64,000 nucleotides of DNA from Romboutsia sp. CE17 (GTDB lineage Bacteria; Bacillota; Clostridia; Peptostreptococcales; Peptostreptococcaceae). The position numbers and the translations under genes are program-made. How positions within the stretch are numbered: position 1 is the first letter of the stretch; each line of letters begins with the position of its first letter. Of this stretch, positions 4,152 through 15,219 are shown piece after piece. The stretch covers positions 682,001-746,000 of the forward strand of contig NZ_CP051144.1 in assembly GCF_012317385.1 (NCBI RefSeq), given 5' to 3'. The notes under the pieces are model-generated. The model searched no databases and was not told the origin of the DNA. It was given only the letters and a program-made list of their open reading frames with translations.

Positions 4152-4257
4152 TTATGCATAATATTTTGAAATATATTATGTATAAATAGAAGCTAATATT
4201 GAAAATAATATATAGTATATGATTGAGAAGTTAAATAAGTATATAAGGAGAGTAGAT

Positions 4258-4665
4258 ATGACTGTTATAACTGATTTTTATCAATTTAAATATAGCCGCA
4301 ATAATTATTATTTGGAATTACTTATAAACAGAACAGCTCTTTTATATATAGAAAAAGCATTGGATGAAAGTTTAAGTAATATGTATTTAAGTAAAGATTC
4401 AGAATGCGCTTATATGAGACTAAAAGAATTATTTTATAATTCAAGAGTAGAAAGTGATTCATTATATGTAGAACTTAGAATAAATAAATGCTATTTAAAG
4501 TATATGCAAAATTTGAGTTGTTATTTTTATAATAGAAATGAGTATGAGGCAGTAAAAGTATTAAGCGATTATATGCAGTACTTCTCAACATCTGATATAG
4601 ATGAAATTTCAACCTTTTGTGAATTAAATGAAGATATAAAAGTTAGAGTTTTATCTAATGTATGA
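4258..4665 (+). CDS. hypothetical protein, 135 aa
   Basis: No family recognised. An upstream in-frame ATG exists at 4219, but AAGGAG sits 7 bases before the ATG at 4258, so that start (MTVITDFYQF) is preferred. The protein looks soluble and mostly alpha-helical, rich in Tyr, Leu and Glu, with no signal peptide or metal motif. It stands alone between the NlpC/P60 gene and the convergent cotJ operon. The stop codon touches a strong bidirectional terminator. Confidence 0.7.
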   Translation: MTVITDFYQFKYSRNNYYLELLINRTALLYIEKALDESLSNMYLSKDSECAYMRLKELFYNSRVESDSLYVELRINKCYLKYMQNLSCYFYNRNEYEAVKVLSDYMQYFSTSDIDEISTFCELNEDIKVRVLSNV

Positions 4666-6988: not shown

Positions 6989-8002
6989 TTGAAAAAAGTA
7001 TATATAGACTTTGAAATGAACATGCCAAATAATAAAGGTAAAAAGGATATGTTAAATGCAGATATAATAGCTATTGGTGCTATTAAATATGACGAGTGTA
7101 CTGGTGAAGTAGAAAAATTTAAATCTTTAATAAAACCTATAATAAAGAAAGAAGTGTATCCTCATATAGAAGAATTGACTAAAATAACTTCACATGATTT
7201 ATATAAGGCCCCCACGTATGAGGAAGTAATGAGGGATTTTAAATGTTGGTTAGGGATATTCTCCGAAATTAAGGGTATATATACATTTGGAAATTTAGAT
7301 TTAGCTTGTTTTAGTAATATAGATAAAATAAGTTCACAAAAAAATAAACATCCAAGATTTTTAAATAATATAAAAGATTTATTTGTAGATATTAAAGATA
7401 AGTATGTAGATTATGGTATAAGATGCATGAATTATATATCTCTGAAAAATCTTTTAAGTATAGCGAATGTAGAATTTAGTGGAGAAGTTCATGATCCACT
7501 AGATGATGCGTACAATTTATACTTATTAGACTCTATATTAGATGAGAATGAAAGTATACGAGATTTACTAATTATAAAAGACATAATTAAGCCACCATTT
7601 AATACTATAGATGAAAATTTAGAGACTAAATTTGAAATGTATAAAGAATATTTTTATAAAAAGGAAGGTAGTTATGATATAAACTTTATATCTATAGAAA
7701 TAATCAAAGTAGTTAGAAAGTATATTTTATCATTAAAAAATATTGAAATAAACAATATAGAGATATTAAAAGATATTAGTAAAAAACTTATAAGTATAGA
7801 AAAATTATCTAATATAGAAGAAGGGTATTTTTATATTCTAGAAAATCTTTGCTTAGATATGAAGGATCTACTAGATGATTTAATGCTTTATAAATTAAAT
7901 TTAGAAGAGTATAAAAATGAAATAACAAATATCATAGAACTTTTTGATGAAGATTTAGAAGCTGAAGAAATAAATATTAGAACAGACAATATATTAATTT
8001 AA
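6989..8002 (+). CDS. DEDDh-family 3'-5' exonuclease domain protein
   Basis: Likely nucleic-acid 3'-5' exonuclease of the RNase T/DnaQ fold. Catalytic residues can be placed: D7 and E9 in YIDFEMN, D104 in GNLDLA, H168 and D172/173 in HDPLDDA. The exonuclease domain covers about residues 1-182. The remaining 155 residues are helical, charged and not recognised. Start is TTG at 6989 with AGAGAGGGG 8 bases upstream. Monocistronic between two terminators. Substrate (DNA or RNA) unknown. It is not closely similar to the second DEDDh protein at 13287. Confidence 0.82.
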   Translation: MKKVYIDFEMNMPNNKGKKDMLNADIIAIGAIKYDECTGEVEKFKSLIKPIIKKEVYPHIEELTKITSHDLYKAPTYEEVMRDFKCWLGIFSEIKGIYTFGNLDLACFSNIDKISSQKNKHPRFLNNIKDLFVDIKDKYVDYGIRCMNYISLKNLLSIANVEFSGEVHDPLDDAYNLYLLDSILDENESIRDLLIIKDIIKPPFNTIDENLETKFEMYKEYFYKKEGSYDINFISIEIIKVVRKYILSLKNIEINNIEILKDISKKLISIEKLSNIEEGYFYILENLCLDMKDLLDDLMLYKLNLEEYKNEITNIIELFDEDLEAEEINIRTDNILI

Positions 8003-8033
8003 AGATTTCTGCATAAGTAGAAATCTTTTTTTG
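8001..8033 (+). terminator. Rho-independent terminator after exonuclease gene
   Basis: Perfect 10-bp stem AAAGATTTCT with its mirror (8001-8010 with 8019-8028), followed by a T7 run. Confidence 0.88.
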
Positions 8034-8103
8034 TATAAAATACTAATTTATAAAATATACATAAGTATGGAATTTGATTAATATTTAGAGGAGATGTTTT
8101 GCT

Positions 8104-9330
8104 ATGTCTAGTATTTTAAGTTATATTTTTACGGTATTATCAGTATTTGCATTTTTATCCTCGGTATATATTATGTATTTATTATTCAGATTTATGGTTG
8201 AGAGAAGGCATAATAAAAAAAGAAAAAATAAATATGTAAGAAGTAATAGATTTAGCAGTAAAGTGTCTAATAATGTATCAAAAATAGAAAGGAAAATTCA
8301 AAAAAATAGAAATGTAGTTTTTGAAGAAAGAGATAGAAAACAGAATTTAAAAGGAGAAGAAGTTGTAAAGTACAATAATGGTGACTTATATAAAGGCGAA
8401 TTTATAGATGGTAAAAGAAATGGGTTTGGTATTTGTATATTTTCAAATAAAGAAAAATATGAAGGTTTGTGGAAGAATGATGAAATGTATGGAGTAGGAA
8501 AATATACATTTTTAGATGGGTCCACATATACTGGAGACTTTAAGCATGGAGTTATAGAAGGAATAGGTACTTACACATATGCAAATAAGAACTTATACAA
8601 GGGAGAATTTTTAAGTGGAAAGAAAAATGGTAAGGGTACTTTGTATTATAATGATGGAAGTAAGTACATAGGTATGTGGAAAGATGATAAAAAAAGTGGT
8701 AAAGGAAAATTTAAAAATAAAAATGATGACATTTATGAAGGCGAGTTTGAAGATGATAAATTTAATGGTAGAGGAACTTATAAAAGTAAGGATGGATGTG
8801 TTTATATAGGAGAATTTAAAAATAATGTATATCATGGATATGGATGTTATACAAGTGATAAAGGTGATATTTATGAAGGTTACTATAAGTATGGACTAAA
8901 AAAGGGTAGTGGAAAACTAAAGCTTAGAAATGGAGAATCTTACTACGGTGACTTTAAAGATGATCTATTTAATGGAATTGGTAAGTATAGCTATAGTGAT
9001 AATAGTATGTATGAAGGAGATTTTAAAGATGGTAAAAAGGATGGTATAGGGACTTATAATTGCCAGCTATATAAATATATTGGTGAATGGAAAAATAACA
9101 CAAAAAATAAAACCGGAACTTATTATCTTAATTCAGGAAATATTTTAGAAGTTTTTATAGAAAACAATTCTATAAAGGAAGGGGTTTATAAAGTTAAAGG
9201 ATCAGATGATATGTATTTACAGAATGTTGATATAAGTAATGAAAAAGAAGTACTTGAAAATTTAAGCTATTATTTAAAGAATGAAAATTGTAATGAAATC
9301 ACATTAAATACTCCAAGTTTATATAATTAA
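8104..9330 (+). CDS. Membrane-anchored protein with about 11 MORN repeats
   Basis: An N-terminal hydrophobic segment (about residues 5-30) is followed by a very basic stretch (RRHNKKRKNK), which predicts a cytoplasmic body. From about residue 90 to 350 there are 11 consecutive MORN-type repeats of about 23 residues, each starting with Y-x-G-(E/D/x)-(F/W) and containing GxGxY. MORN repeats form extended beta-hairpin scaffolds that bind lipids or proteins. The last 50 residues are unrepetitive and acidic. GAGGAG precedes the ATG. The intracellular subtilisin gene begins 28 bases downstream with no terminator between, so the two are probably co-transcribed. Role unknown; a membrane scaffold for the protease is inference. 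Confidence 0.85.
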   Translation: MSSILSYIFTVLSVFAFLSSVYIMYLLFRFMVERRHNKKRKNKYVRSNRFSSKVSNNVSKIERKIQKNRNVVFEERDRKQNLKGEEVVKYNNGDLYKGEFIDGKRNGFGICIFSNKEKYEGLWKNDEMYGVGKYTFLDGSTYTGDFKHGVIEGIGTYTYANKNLYKGEFLSGKKNGKGTLYYNDGSKYIGMWKDDKKSGKGKFKNKNDDIYEGEFEDDKFNGRGTYKSKDGCVYIGEFKNNVYHGYGCYTSDKGDIYEGYYKYGLKKGSGKLKLRNGESYYGDFKDDLFNGIGKYSYSDNSMYEGDFKDGKKDGIGTYNCQLYKYIGEWKNNTKNKTGTYYLNSGNILEVFIENNSIKEGVYKVKGSDDMYLQNVDISNEKEVLENLSYYLKNENCNEITLNTPSLYN

Positions 9331-9358
9331 GTATAATGTAAAATTTGGAGTGATATGT

Positions 9359-10315
9359 ATGAAAATTAAAGAAAATGATATAGACTTAAATGTCAAATTA
9401 ATACCATATATAAAAAATGATGAGTTTAGAGGTGTTTCCCTAGGCAGAATATATGGAATAAATATGATACAAGCAAAAAGTTTTTGGCAAAAGTCTCTAA
9501 AGGGAGAAGGAATAAATATTGCTGTAATAGATTCAGGTTGCGATATAAATCATATAAATTTAAAAGATAGAATAGTTGGAGTAAGAAATTTTACAGATGA
9601 GGATGGTAAAAATCCTAATATTGTTATTGATAGGGTTGGTCATGGTACTCATGTTACAGGTATAATTGCAGCAAATGGAGCTAACGGTATAGTAGGGGTA
9701 GCACCAAATGCAAATATATATGTTTTAAAGGCTATAAATAAAACTGGTTCAGGAAAACTAAGCTGGGTAGTTAATGCTATATATTATGCTATAGAAAAAA
9801 AGGTAGATATAATATCAATGTCGCTTGGAATGTCAGCAAATAATGAAAAATTAGAAAGAGCAGTAAAGGAAGCTATAAGTAAAAATATATTAGTAGTATG
9901 TGCAGCAGGAAATGAAGGAGATGGAAATGCAACGGATTTTCAATACTCATACCCAGCTGCATATATTGATGTAATATCAGTAGGTGCAGTTGATAAAAAA
10001 GGAGAACCAGCATATTTTAGTAGCGCTAATCTTGTAATAGATGTTGTAGCACCTGGTGTAGATATAATATCGACATATCCTAATAATAGTTATGCAAGTC
10101 TAAGTGGAACTAGTATGGCAACTCCCTATGTAAGTGGAAGCTTAGCCCTTTTAAAAAATTGGTCACAAGAAGAATTTCAAAGAAGTTTAACAGAACAAGA
10201 GCTATATGCTCAATTAATAAAGCATACTAAGACTTTAAATTATTCTAGAGCAGTCCAAGGGAATGGATTAGTATACCTAAAAGAAGAAAAAATAATAAAA
10301 AAAATAAAGTATTAA
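9359..10315 (+). CDS. Intracellular subtilisin-like serine protease (ISP type, LIPY pro-sequence)
   Basis: Peptidase family S8. Catalytic triad D58 (DSGCD), H95 (GHGTHV) and S252 (GTSMATP), with oxyanion Asn N185 (AGNEG). There is no signal peptide. The N-terminus carries LIPY at residues 14-17, the short inhibitory propeptide motif known from Bacillus intracellular subtilisins, where it blocks the active site until removed. Start: a GTG at 9350 is in frame, but TTGGAG sits 8 bases before the ATG at 9359, giving MKIKEND and 318 residues, the ISP size. Follows the MORN gene, probably in one transcript. Expected cytoplasmic protein turnover, for example during sporulation. Confidence 0.92.
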   Translation: MKIKENDIDLNVKLIPYIKNDEFRGVSLGRIYGINMIQAKSFWQKSLKGEGINIAVIDSGCDINHINLKDRIVGVRNFTDEDGKNPNIVIDRVGHGTHVTGIIAANGANGIVGVAPNANIYVLKAINKTGSGKLSWVVNAIYYAIEKKVDIISMSLGMSANNEKLERAVKEAISKNILVVCAAGNEGDGNATDFQYSYPAAYIDVISVGAVDKKGEPAYFSSANLVIDVVAPGVDIISTYPNNSYASLSGTSMATPYVSGSLALLKNWSQEEFQRSLTEQELYAQLIKHTKTLNYSRAVQGNGLVYLKEEKIIKKIKY

Positions 10316-10316
10316 A

Positions 10317-10363
10317 AAATAAACTGTCTTAATTAATGAATTATTAAGACAGTTTATTTTTTT
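10317..10363 (+). terminator. Rho-independent terminator after subtilisin gene
   Basis: Perfect 17-bp stem (10317-10333 with 10343-10359) followed by a T run; one of the longest terminator stems in the window. Confidence 0.9.
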
Positions 10364-10441
10364 AATATTATTAGTCAATTTTTGGTGAATTATGATTAAG
10401 ATTTGACTAAAATCGAAATTTTAGATAATATATAGTAAGAG

Positions 10442-10458
10442 GTTACAATAAAGTTACA
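10442..10458 (-). promoter_or_regulatory. WalR-like box upstream of ftsEX operon
   Basis: On the minus strand this reads TGTAAC-TTTAT-TGTAAC, an exact match to TGT(A/T)A(A/T/C)-N5-TGT(A/T)A(A/T/C). It is about 80 bases before ftsE. In Bacillus, WalRK controls the FtsEX-dependent hydrolase CwlO, so the location is functionally plausible. Confidence 0.5.
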
Positions 10459-10536
10459 AAAAATGATATTATTATCAATGATTGAAACATAGTTTGTAAA
10501 TATAAATAGTAAAATCGAATTAAATGGAGTGATAGG

Positions 10537-11223
10537 ATGATAAAATTTACATGCGTAGACAAAATGTATCCTGATGGCAACAAAACTCTAAAAAATATAA
10601 ACTTGAAAATCGACAAAGGAGAGTTTGTATTTTTAGTAGGTCGATCAGGCGCAGGAAAATCTACTTTACTTAAGTTAATAACAAGAGAAGAAAAGGCTTC
10701 AAAAGGAAGCGTATCTATATTAGGTGAAGATATAACAAATATAAAAGTAAATAAGATACATAAATATAGAAGAAGATTAGGTATAGTATTTCAAGATTAT
10801 AAGTTATTAAAAGATAAGACCGTTTATGAAAATGTAGAACTTGCTATGAGAGTAGTTGGAGCAAATCCAAAAGAAATAAAGACTAGAGTAATGGAAGTAT
10901 TACAAAAAGTAGGAATTTATCATAAATGTAATAAATATCCGGATGAATTATCAGGTGGTGAGTGTCAAAGAGTTGGTATAGCAAGAGCTATAGTTAATAA
11001 ACCATCTATAATAATTGCTGATGAATGTACAGGAAACTTAGATATAGAAAACTCTAGAAAGATTGTAGATTTATTACAAAGTATAAATGAAGAGGGTGTT
11101 ACTATAGTAATGGCTACTCATGATACAGAAATATTAAAGCAGTATAACAAAAGAATTATAGCAATAGATGCTGGAAAAATAATAAAAGATACAAAGAGGG
11201 AACAACATGAAGCTATTGTCTAA
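10537..11223 (+). CDS. ftsE: Cell division ATP-binding protein FtsE
   Basis: ABC-type ATPase that with FtsX forms a transmembrane switch activating peptidoglycan hydrolases at division or elongation sites. 228 residues, typical length. Walker A GRSGAGKST near residues 35-43, signature LSGGECQR, Walker B IIIADECTGNLD, and the switch His in ATHDTE. The atypical A-D-E-C-T segment has Cys where most ABC ATPases have Pro. The ATG has GGAGTGAT upstream. It overlaps ftsX by 17 bases. An M23 hydrolase gene follows, making a complete FtsEX-effector operon. Confidence 0.96.
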   Translation: MIKFTCVDKMYPDGNKTLKNINLKIDKGEFVFLVGRSGAGKSTLLKLITREEKASKGSVSILGEDITNIKVNKIHKYRRRLGIVFQDYKLLKDKTVYENVELAMRVVGANPKEIKTRVMEVLQKVGIYHKCNKYPDELSGGECQRVGIARAIVNKPSIIIADECTGNLDIENSRKIVDLLQSINEEGVTIVMATHDTEILKQYNKRIIAIDAGKIIKDTKREQHEAIV

Positions 11224-13918: not shown

Positions 13919-14218
13919 ATGGGATTTATGAATATAAATATTTTTATTAATAAAGTAGAATTTGGAATTTACAAGATAATAAATAAAAAAACTAAGTATA
14001 TATTAGAAGATGAAATTATAATACCTAAATCTTTTAGTATAGGAGAGAGACTAAGTTATATAAGGAAAATGGTTAGTATATTAGTTAAAGAGTATGGAGT
14101 TAGAAAAGCATACATGTATGTAGAAGAAGATATAGGAGTAGAGATAATAGATGCTGTAAAAGTAGAAGGTATAATTGAAGAGTTATTTTCTAGTTGTGGG
14201 GTAGAATTATGCAAATAA
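13919..14218 (+). CDS. Small RuvC/RNase-H-fold-like protein overlapping a kinase gene
   Basis: 99 residues, not recognised as a named family. By eye it resembles the first two-thirds of RuvC: a beta-rich start, then ERLSYIRKMVSILVKEY, a strand ending in VEED (where RuvC has its second catalytic Glu), and a helix VKVEGIIEELFSSCGVEL like RuvC's ARGV helix. The first-strand catalytic Asp appears replaced (FINKV) and the C-terminal catalytic part is absent, so nuclease activity is unlikely. AGGGGGAG precedes the ATG at 13919; a second ATG is at 13928. It overlaps the following kinase gene by 10 bases, so the two are coupled. Confidence 0.7.
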   Translation: MGFMNINIFINKVEFGIYKIINKKTKYILEDEIIIPKSFSIGERLSYIRKMVSILVKEYGVRKAYMYVEEDIGVEIIDAVKVEGIIEELFSSCGVELCK

Positions 14219-15219
14219 GTACACGAATAAACTTAAAAATACTGAAAAAAATTGATTCAGAGGGAGTAAATTCAGCATTGTATATAGTTGAAGATACTCA
14301 ATTAGGCTCCAAATTTATATTAAAGCAAATAGATAAAAAAAATCTTAAAGAGTATGAGAAATATTTTGAAGAATCTAAAAAAATATGTAGTCTAAATCAT
14401 CCAAATATAATATCAATAAAGCATGCTTCATATGATGATAAATATATATATATTGTAATGCCTTATTTTAAAAAGGGGTCTTTATATAATTTATTACAAA
14501 ATGAAAGTCTAACAATAAGGGAAATAATAAAATATGCTTTAGATTTTCTGCAAGCAGTATATTACATCCACAAAAATAATATGCTTCATTGTGATATAAA
14601 GCCTAATAATATACTTATAAGCGATGAAAATAAAGCTATATTGACTGATTTTGGTTCTGCACTATATCTAAACGAGGATGGAAATGCTAAATTAAAAAAT
14701 GTTTATTACAAACATATAGCTCCAGAGCAATGTTTAAATTCTACTATAAACAAAAAAATAGATATATATCAAATTGGAACTACGCTATATAGAATGTGTA
14801 ATGGAAATGAAGAATATAATAAACAAGTAAGAAGGTATAAGGATTTAAATAGTTTAAAAATAGCATGTGCTAATGGAAAATTTCCTGTAAGAAAAAAATA
14901 CTTACCTCATATACCTAAATCAATGATTTTGATTATTGAAAAGTGTTTGAAAGTAAATAAAGATGAACGATATAATAATGTTTTAGAAATAATGAATGAT
15001 TTATCATTGATAAATGAAAATTTAGATTGGCGTTATCAAAAAATTGATAAAGAAAATTACTCTTGGACATTTAATGAAAAGTATATATATTTATATAAAG
15101 AAACGGGATATTGGAACATTAAACATAATATAAATAAAGATATAGAATATTCACAAGTAAAATCTTTAGAAACAAAAGCTCAAGGATATAGAGTTATAAG
15201 AAAAATTATAAATATGTAA
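14209..15219 (+). CDS. Soluble Hanks-type Ser/Thr protein kinase with C-terminal extension
   Basis: Eukaryotic-like kinase: K39 (FILK), catalytic loop HCDIKPNN (D129, N134), DFG at 147-149, APE at 171-173. The glycine loop is degenerate (DSEGVNS in place of GxGxxG). There is no transmembrane segment and no PASTA domains, so it is not the wall-sensing PrkC type. After the kinase (about 1-270) comes an aromatic extension of about 65 residues (SWTFNEKYIYLYKETGYW) of unknown fold. Start: ATG 14209 chosen over an upstream TTG at 14194; TGGGGT serves as a weak ribosome site inside the preceding gene. Substrates unknown; the overlapping small protein is the obvious candidate partner. Confidence 0.85.
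   Translation: MQISTRINLKILKKIDSEGVNSALYIVEDTQLGSKFILKQIDKKNLKEYEKYFEESKKICSLNHPNIISIKHASYDDKYIYIVMPYFKKGSLYNLLQNESLTIREIIKYALDFLQAVYYIHKNNMLHCDIKPNNILISDENKAILTDFGSALYLNEDGNAKLKNVYYKHIAPEQCLNSTINKKIDIYQIGTTLYRMCNGNEEYNKQVRRYKDLNSLKIACANGKFPVRKKYLPHIPKSMILIIEKCLKVNKDERYNNVLEIMNDLSLINENLDWRYQKIDKENYSWTFNEKYIYLYKETGYWNIKHNINKDIEYSQVKSLETKAQGYRVIRKIINM

Follow-up and report, generated by a model that had tools for sequence, protein, structure and literature searches.

The MORN-ISP locus and its products

The window analysed here is a 64,000-nt stretch of Romboutsia sp. CE17 (contig NZ_CP051144.1, positions 682,001 to 746,000), in which a gene for a membrane protein with MORN repeats (hereafter MORN) is directly followed by a gene for an intracellular subtilisin (ISP). 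We consider what may connect these two genes, and in particular a conserved RNA element that is predicted across their junction. The genes, their main features and the limits of the presumed transcription unit are the following, in window coordinates:

8001..8028, + strand: intrinsic terminator after the upstream exonuclease gene, at the start of the two-gene unit (-13.1 kcal/mol, z -5.2)
8104..9330, + strand: MORN membrane protein, 408 aa (a membrane helix, a linker modelled with low confidence, a solenoid of 12 hairpins and a C-terminal tail)
8107..8217, + strand: N-terminal membrane helix of MORN, residues 2-38, with positive charges C-terminal of the helix (AlphaFold2 model and charge count)
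9091..9327, + strand: C-terminal tail of MORN, approximately residues 330-408 (present with ISP at the locus, absent without it)
9359..10315, + strand: ISP, 318 aa
9398..9409, + strand: LIPY inhibitory motif, ISP residues 14-17 (from the sequence; motif defined in the available part of PMC6220982)
9530..9532, + strand: catalytic Asp58
9641..9643, + strand: catalytic His95
10112..10114, + strand: catalytic Ser252
10314..10362, + strand: stem-loop terminator after ISP (-20.5 kcal/mol, z -7.3, 0 of 200 shuffles as good)

The MORN protein matched a single Pfam family (PF02493, MORN, 166.9 bits; E <= 0.001), and its AlphaFold2 model (mean pLDDT 84.9, from a 17-row alignment) shows an N-terminal helix at residues 2-38, low confidence at residues 36-82, 12 beta hairpins by our count, ten of them in a 23-residue register, and a short tail. 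Tandem MORN hairpins of about 23 residues are present according to Pfam, the model and Foldseek, and the figure of about 11 repeats given in a first-pass annotation of the window was a fair one. The nearest structures in Foldseek were protozoan MORN1 proteins (6t6q, E 3e-20; 6t4r, E 2e-18, target TM-score 0.90). A hydrophobic segment spans residues 8-28, with no Lys or Arg before it and eight in the 15 residues after it, a pattern that, together with the helix, bears out the N-terminal membrane anchor proposed earlier. Because of these flanking charges, the MORN solenoid should face the cytosol. MORN repeats are regarded as dimerisation and protein-contact modules, and their binding of lipids is doubted, in the available part of PMC7725318; the lipid binding first ascribed to the repeats is accordingly in doubt. 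The window's genome (G000) also encodes a second MORN protein of 269 aa, with no membrane helix by eye (G000:C1:1648377-1649084, L257); the 288-aa gene beside it is YitT-type by Pfam (L257, L261), and a 288-aa open reading frame (ORF) is found in the corresponding position in L259 and L260.

The mechanical ORF list starts ISP at GTG 9350. Given GGAG at 9347-9350, a likely Shine-Dalgarno sequence, and ATG at 9359, the latter is the likely start, which would yield a 318-aa ISP and a gap of 28 nt to MORN, the distance originally noted. The protein matched PF00082 (Peptidase_S8, 199.6 bits) and no other Pfam family at E <= 0.001, while D58, H95 and S252 were invariant, and P16 of LIPY nearly so, among 14 aligned ISPs. 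No signal peptide was apparent (the start is polar, as judged by reading the sequence). The initial description of an S8 protease with this triad, a LIPY motif at residues 14-17 and no signal peptide was thus upheld by Pfam, the alignment and the sequence. Five of the six best PDB matches (7xr8, 7y6m, 6f9m, 2wv7, 2x8j and 2xrm; 260-322 bits) are named intracellular protease or subtilisin, 6f9m being named only 'Serine protease', and the best chain of the subtilisin BPN' type scored below the ISP chains (185 bits). By this comparison the window protease appears closer to ISPs than to secreted subtilisins. Control of ISPs elsewhere has been ascribed to the LIPY propeptide, the LIPY/F motif being [LVI]-[IFLV]-P-[YFH] (PMC6220982, as far as available).

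The ISPs of this locus formed one clade (support 88), separate from the ISP2 paralogs, the two ISPs of g18 and the rows taken from Bacilli. ISP2, a second ISP lineage, was found elsewhere in L089, L090, L091, L092, L093, L177 and L188 with no adjoining MORN match, and shares approximately 52-57% identity with the locus ISP (L089, L090, L091, L092, L093). In one genome the ISP2 copy is broken into two overlapping frames (L094:7647-8565); in its relative L093 it is a single frame. LIPY is preceded by about 11-13 residues in MORN-adjacent ISPs, compared with 5-6 in most g12, g18, ISP2 and Bacilli rows with a clear start. This N-terminal extension was considered as a contact for MORN and dropped, as the ISPs of g10, which lack MORN, have an even longer one.

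T-runs accompany the stem-loops before MORN and after ISP. A consensus terminator scan did not list the one at 10314-10362, in our reading because its 9-nt loop exceeds the limit of the scan; the stem-loop itself agrees with the single strong terminator that the first-pass annotation had placed after the protease. No T-run lies between the two genes, and the earlier statement that no terminator separates them holds, but a stable hairpin over the ISP Shine-Dalgarno had been overlooked there. In a search for a sigma-E/K promoter upstream of MORN, the full sigma-E pattern (ATA at -35, CATAnnWT at -10) matched none of 39 regions (2.3 expected by shuffling), with both g18 isp positive controls likewise unmatched; a loose -10 occurred in 3 of the 39, below the shuffle mean of 7.0, and in one of the two controls. 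With such controls the test has little power. The C. difficile isp gene CD2000 is reported to be under sigma-E in the available part of PMC3789822.

Conservation of the pair in the family

The family search covered 71 genomes from 23 genera. An ISP of the locus type was present at the locus in 30 of them and MORN in 39; both were present in 27, MORN only in 12 and ISP only in three. The genes were directly adjacent in 22 of the 27 genomes with both (median gap 22.5 nt), and in the remaining five, all of genus g12, two genes lie between them. Adjacency thus extends well beyond this strain, a point that the first-pass annotation had singled out for checking. However, adjacency alone is weak evidence of a link because the whole block is syntenic and TtcA-EXO, neighbours with no expected link, were equally conserved (34 of 34), as were FtsX-M23 (19 of 19) and the known gene pair FtsE-FtsX (21 of 21). 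With such neighbours in view, MORN and ISP could be held together merely by the conserved chromosomal block and have no functional link at all. We consider this improbable in light of the short operon-like gap (medians were 101-158 nt for TtcA-EXO, EXO-MORN and ISP-FtsE), the survival of the pair in G004, from whose block EXO, FtsE, FtsX and M23 are gone, and the conserved junction element described below. The short gap and the survival in G004 are better signs of a link than adjacency.

In g12, the intervening genes encode NfeD and SPFH (Band 7) proteins (L079:8997-10379, with Pfam run on L079 only), and ORFs of the same sizes occupy the interval in L080, L242, L243 and L244. The window's genome carries an SPFH homologue away from the locus (G000:C1:421939-422910).

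A sigG match was present in every one of the 42 genomes that have at least one of the two genes at the locus (above the curated cut-off in 41), compared with 13 of the 29 genomes with neither gene (16 had none). In the genomes examined, the unit is therefore confined to those with this spore sigma factor, which kinship may explain. Beyond the family search, MORN was found within the flanks of 18 among the best 80 of 347 ISP relatives' loci, namely in Romboutsia, Terrisporobacter, Asaccharospora, Faecalimicrobium, Paraclostridium, [Eubacterium] tenue, as well as entries labelled Peptostreptococcaceae or Clostridium sp. whose ISP is of the same type. Among the same best 80 of 347, no Bacilli ISP locus had a MORN neighbour, as seen in flanks of up to 5 kb, some ended by contig ends, in a search that did not extend to fusion proteins. 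In an evenly drawn sample of 198 genomes of the order, all 23 with an ISP (E <= 1e-80) belonged to the window's family. A literature search, limited in reach, found no report of a MORN-ISP pair.

Two further observations concern other genes in the window. A 148-aa ORF at 4219-4665, with no Pfam match (E <= 0.001), recurs in many loci of the block at approximately 37-68% identity. At 13919-15219, a 99-aa ORF shares 25 nt with the start, as listed, of a Ser/Thr protein kinase ORF, and the two ORFs are adjacent in 19 of the 20 genomes with both.

The predicted junction hairpin and proposed translational coupling

The junction between MORN and ISP contains the following elements:

9297..9364, + strand: conserved junction element (covariance model R1)
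9309..9320, + strand: 5' arm of the predicted hairpin, within the final codons of MORN
9341..9352, + strand: 3' arm of the predicted hairpin, over the ISP Shine-Dalgarno
9347..9350, + strand: ISP Shine-Dalgarno GGAG (predicted paired, probability 1.00)

The MORN stop lies in the loop of the predicted hairpin. In the window, the hairpin folds at -14.9 kcal/mol (z -3.3, 1 of 200 dinucleotide shuffles as good), and the pairing probability of 1.00 for GGAG 9347-9350 was also obtained in 210- and 370-nt contexts. The same helix was the lowest-energy fold in 13 of the 22 adjacent junctions (8 genera). Across all 22 junctions, unselected, it came out best among the 1021 11-bp helices that are possible, 85% of its cells being paired. 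In the 16 junctions that remain without g15, it ranked first of 1081 with 96% of cells paired, followed by nine versions of itself shifted along the helix axis, and fold energies ranged from -9.2 to -14.9 kcal/mol. The six g15 junctions were left out of alignment A4, model R1 and the nine-genus identity profile, and figures from A4 consequently refer to a selected set, a selection that inflates them; the 11-bp ranking over 22 junctions and the Shine-Dalgarno comparison include g15. In a 15-bp version of the helix (16 junctions), 85.2% of cells were paired, compared with 40-55% when it was slid by 1-3 positions. Its covariation score was 0.262 (0.207 in shuffled alignments, 2 of 500 as high), and five pairs showed two-sided changes (3.2 in shuffled alignments, 34 of 500 as high).

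Model R1 matched 16 of the 71 family genomes at E <= 1.1e-10, each time at this junction, and nothing else better than 8.8e-4; the 16 matches are the model's own training set and so show uniqueness, not prediction, and the search used stricter filters that are able to lose weak matches. The Shine-Dalgarno was paired with a probability above 0.8 in 9 of 20 ISP junctions (G093, with no recognised Shine-Dalgarno, is unscored), compared with 20 of 212 other short junctions (9.4%; the G000 copy L258 is omitted from this background). Nucleotide identity across nine genera was 0.72, 0.84 and 0.75 in successive 20-nt bins over 9297-9356, compared with 0.30-0.70 in the end of MORN before the junction and 0.49-0.70 in ISP after it. 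The MORN C-termini encoded there differ (...SLYN*, ...FEFI*, ...NYS*, ...QSP*), and the distance from the end of the MORN stop to the Shine-Dalgarno varies from 16 to 39 nt (masked G023 left aside). Because identity peaks at the junction while the stop moves, the constraint looks to be more on nucleic acid than on protein.

Translational coupling by RNA unfolding is one of two models set out in the available part of PMC12548453: structure hides the downstream ribosome-binding site (RBS) until it is unfolded by ribosomes that translate the upstream gene. A short gap and a downstream RBS masked by predicted structure that reaches into the upstream gene are both found in the window, and conservation of the junction element points to coupling of the two genes in this manner. 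We therefore propose, at slightly less than even odds (a probability of roughly 0.47), that MORN and ISP form a two-gene operon of spore-forming Peptostreptococcaceae in which ISP translation is coupled to that of MORN by RNA unfolding. The first gene would give a protein that spans the membrane once and has its MORN solenoid in the cytosol, and the second an autoinhibited intracellular subtilisin; on the operon mRNA, the hairpin would keep ISP translation poor until ribosomes finishing MORN open it, and protease output would follow scaffold output. As a MORN-ISP link, the junction element appears stronger and more testable than the idea of a tether.

Several properties of the junctions weigh against coupling. 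Three g13 junctions keep 9 of 10 pairs as potential; they fold in a shifted register with two of four Shine-Dalgarno bases paired (pairing 0.51, z -1.4 to -1.7). The six g15 junctions lack the shared helix (3-7 of 7-11 pairs) yet their genes are adjacent, and their Shine-Dalgarno pairing is 0.01-0.60 (five scored). Support for the helix is mostly one-sided (C/U opposite G, A/G opposite U), because the 3' arm, being a Shine-Dalgarno, is not free to change, and the 11-bp core has one two-sided cell, in one pair. Mean Shine-Dalgarno pairing, 0.71 for MORN-ISP, was also fairly high at two other junctions of the block, with 0.68 for M23-DnaQ (3 of 10 above 0.8) and 0.60 for CotJB-CotJC (3 of 12). 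In the two g8 genomes the MORN stop, at a distance of 39 nt from the Shine-Dalgarno, already precedes the 5' arm. Finally, when a ribosome footprint at the MORN stop was held unpaired, the fold weakened from -14.9 to -4.8 kcal/mol and the Shine-Dalgarno was still 0.74 paired elsewhere, so that the modelled prediction of coupling is not clean.

The main rival to coupling is that the junction is conserved as an internal promoter of ISP, of vegetative type (ATCACA/ATCACC, 18 nt, TATAAT), with the hairpin being a by-product or acting only on read-through mRNA. One such site overlaps the junction:

9298..9327, + strand: promoter-like site ATCACA-18-TATAAT (score 10/12)

TATAAT occurs in the extracted junction segment of 20 of the 22 genomes, including g15, where the helix is absent, and the best-conserved identity bin contains the loop. 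However, TATAAT arises easily in AT-rich DNA, and promoter-like sites were not enriched in the region (34 found, 42.2 in shuffles). The 5' arm sits in the would-be spacer, in which pairing ought to be of no consequence, and yet pairs in the 96% of cells given above, and G004, without TATAAT, keeps the helix with a compensatory pair. An internal promoter as the reason for this conservation is accordingly unlikely in our judgement. Promoter and coupling may also both hold; the 5' arm would be missing from transcripts that start at this promoter. We assign a still lower likelihood, lower also than that of a pair without a functional link, to the hairpin being a sensor, such as a fourU-type RNA thermometer or a regulator site, instead of a coupling device. 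A UUU or UUUU faces the Shine-Dalgarno GGAG in several genera, as in the fourU class (PMC10586365, as far as available), and the fold energies of the 16 junctions are moderate. Against a sensor, in most genomes the 5' arm and the end of the upstream gene overlap, in line with coupling, and an Rfam search of 8000-10600 with E up to 1 gave no match at the gathering score (two were far below it, at 21.6 against 45 and 21.3 against 41.5 bits).

Partners apart and relation to known systems

Coupling has also to be weighed against the genomes in which the partners occur apart. MORN without ISP at the locus was found in 12 genomes (g11, g18), with lengths of 207-272 aa (the shortest is ended by a contig end), and ISP without MORN in three genomes of g10. 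Values of dN/dS were 0.11-0.25 for MORN alone (7 pairs) compared with 0.095-0.16 when linked (10 pairs), and 0.11-0.18 for ISP alone (3 pairs) compared with 0.05-0.13 when linked (10 pairs); the pairs share genomes, hence are not independent, and g12 was classed as linked. Both partners look slightly relaxed when alone, although the ranges overlap. The eight g18 genomes each have another ISP elsewhere, while the four g11 genomes have no ISP match at E <= 1e-70. Each gene therefore persists alone and neither needs the other everywhere, which counts against the proposed unit as well. As MORN persists without this ISP, it must have a second role too.

The C-terminal tail of MORN follows the presence of ISP: a model of the tail matched 26 of 27 MORN proteins at ISP loci and none of 12 without ISP. 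Nineteen of the 26 matches are the model's own training set, which reduces their weight, and the one miss (G023) has masked bases. G020 and G023 were left out of both tail models and g15 also out of the second; in these independent tests, six g15 proteins and G020 all matched, and G023 did not. The MORN proteins of g15 are short (231-232 aa), keeping the membrane helix, few repeats and the tail beside ISP. Independent co-loss of ISP and tail in g11 and g18 was suggested by FastTree, which set them apart, and was discarded, because a mixture-model quick tree (one row left out) joins g11 and g18 in one clade (support 84). As the two join in this tree, the association of tail and ISP would be a single observation, apparently one evolutionary event.

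The first-pass annotation had gone further and suggested that MORN tethers or controls the protease at the membrane. In its strict form, in which MORN exists to tether or inhibit ISP, this is in keeping with a solenoid on the cytosolic side, a conserved pair with a short gap, a tail found only with ISP, and the protein-contact nature of the repeats noted above from the available part of PMC7725318. Since MORN is under purifying selection, in the pairs tested, in genomes without ISP at the locus (among which the four of g11 have no ISP match at E <= 1e-70) and ISP is kept without MORN, MORN is not an obligate tether for ISP. Moreover, no MORN neighbour was found at six ISP2 loci or at the Bacilli loci among the best 80 of 347, and two genes separate the pair in g12. 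We thus regard the strict form as doubtful. What endures of the suggested link is the conserved pair, the probably cytosolic solenoid and the conserved junction that suggests coupling; that the partners depend on each other everywhere is contradicted by the persistence of each alone. A weaker addition to translational coupling, which we would entertain only tentatively, is a contact between the two proteins at the membrane, made by way of the MORN tail. A fuller version, with the protease locked twice (by its LIPY propeptide and by an mRNA hairpin opened only by MORN translation), made beside fresh MORN and handed to its tail at the membrane, would be quite speculative and less likely than such a contact by itself.

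Control of cytosolic subtilisins is only partly known, through the propeptide and a disputed inhibitor. If the coupling proposed here is true, a conserved RNA element linking the amount of protease to a membrane protein would add a new level of regulation. We know of few bacterial MORN proteins with a known function, and a conserved partner gene gives a first handle on one.

The system resembles several known ones in part. The solenoid has the same MORN fold as eukaryotic MORN proteins (Trypanosoma brucei MORN1, 6t4r; Toxoplasma gondii MORN1, 6t6q); in contrast to these, the window protein comes from a bacterium and has a membrane helix at its N-terminus and a separate tail at its C-terminus. 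ISP shares its S8 domain, catalytic triad, lack of an apparent signal peptide and LIPY/F motif with Bacillus-type ISPs (closest solved chain 7xr8, 'Major intracellular serine protease'), whereas its gene follows a MORN gene and has a Shine-Dalgarno that a hairpin is predicted to cover. NfeD-SPFH membrane modules, which stand between MORN and ISP in g12, are absent from the window's locus. BsuPI/IPI (PF12690), an inhibitor of Isp1, is likewise a second protein proposed to restrain an ISP; according to the available part of PMC3901451, its genes are not near a subtilisin gene in the complete genomes examined there. Unlike IPI, MORN is encoded next to ISP and has no PF12690 match in Pfam at E <= 0.001. 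With the translationally coupled pairs of the RNA-unfolding model, as described in the available part of PMC12548453, the junction shares a short gap and an RBS-masking structure; here, however, the pair consists of a membrane MORN protein and a protease, and the coupling is predicted from sequence.

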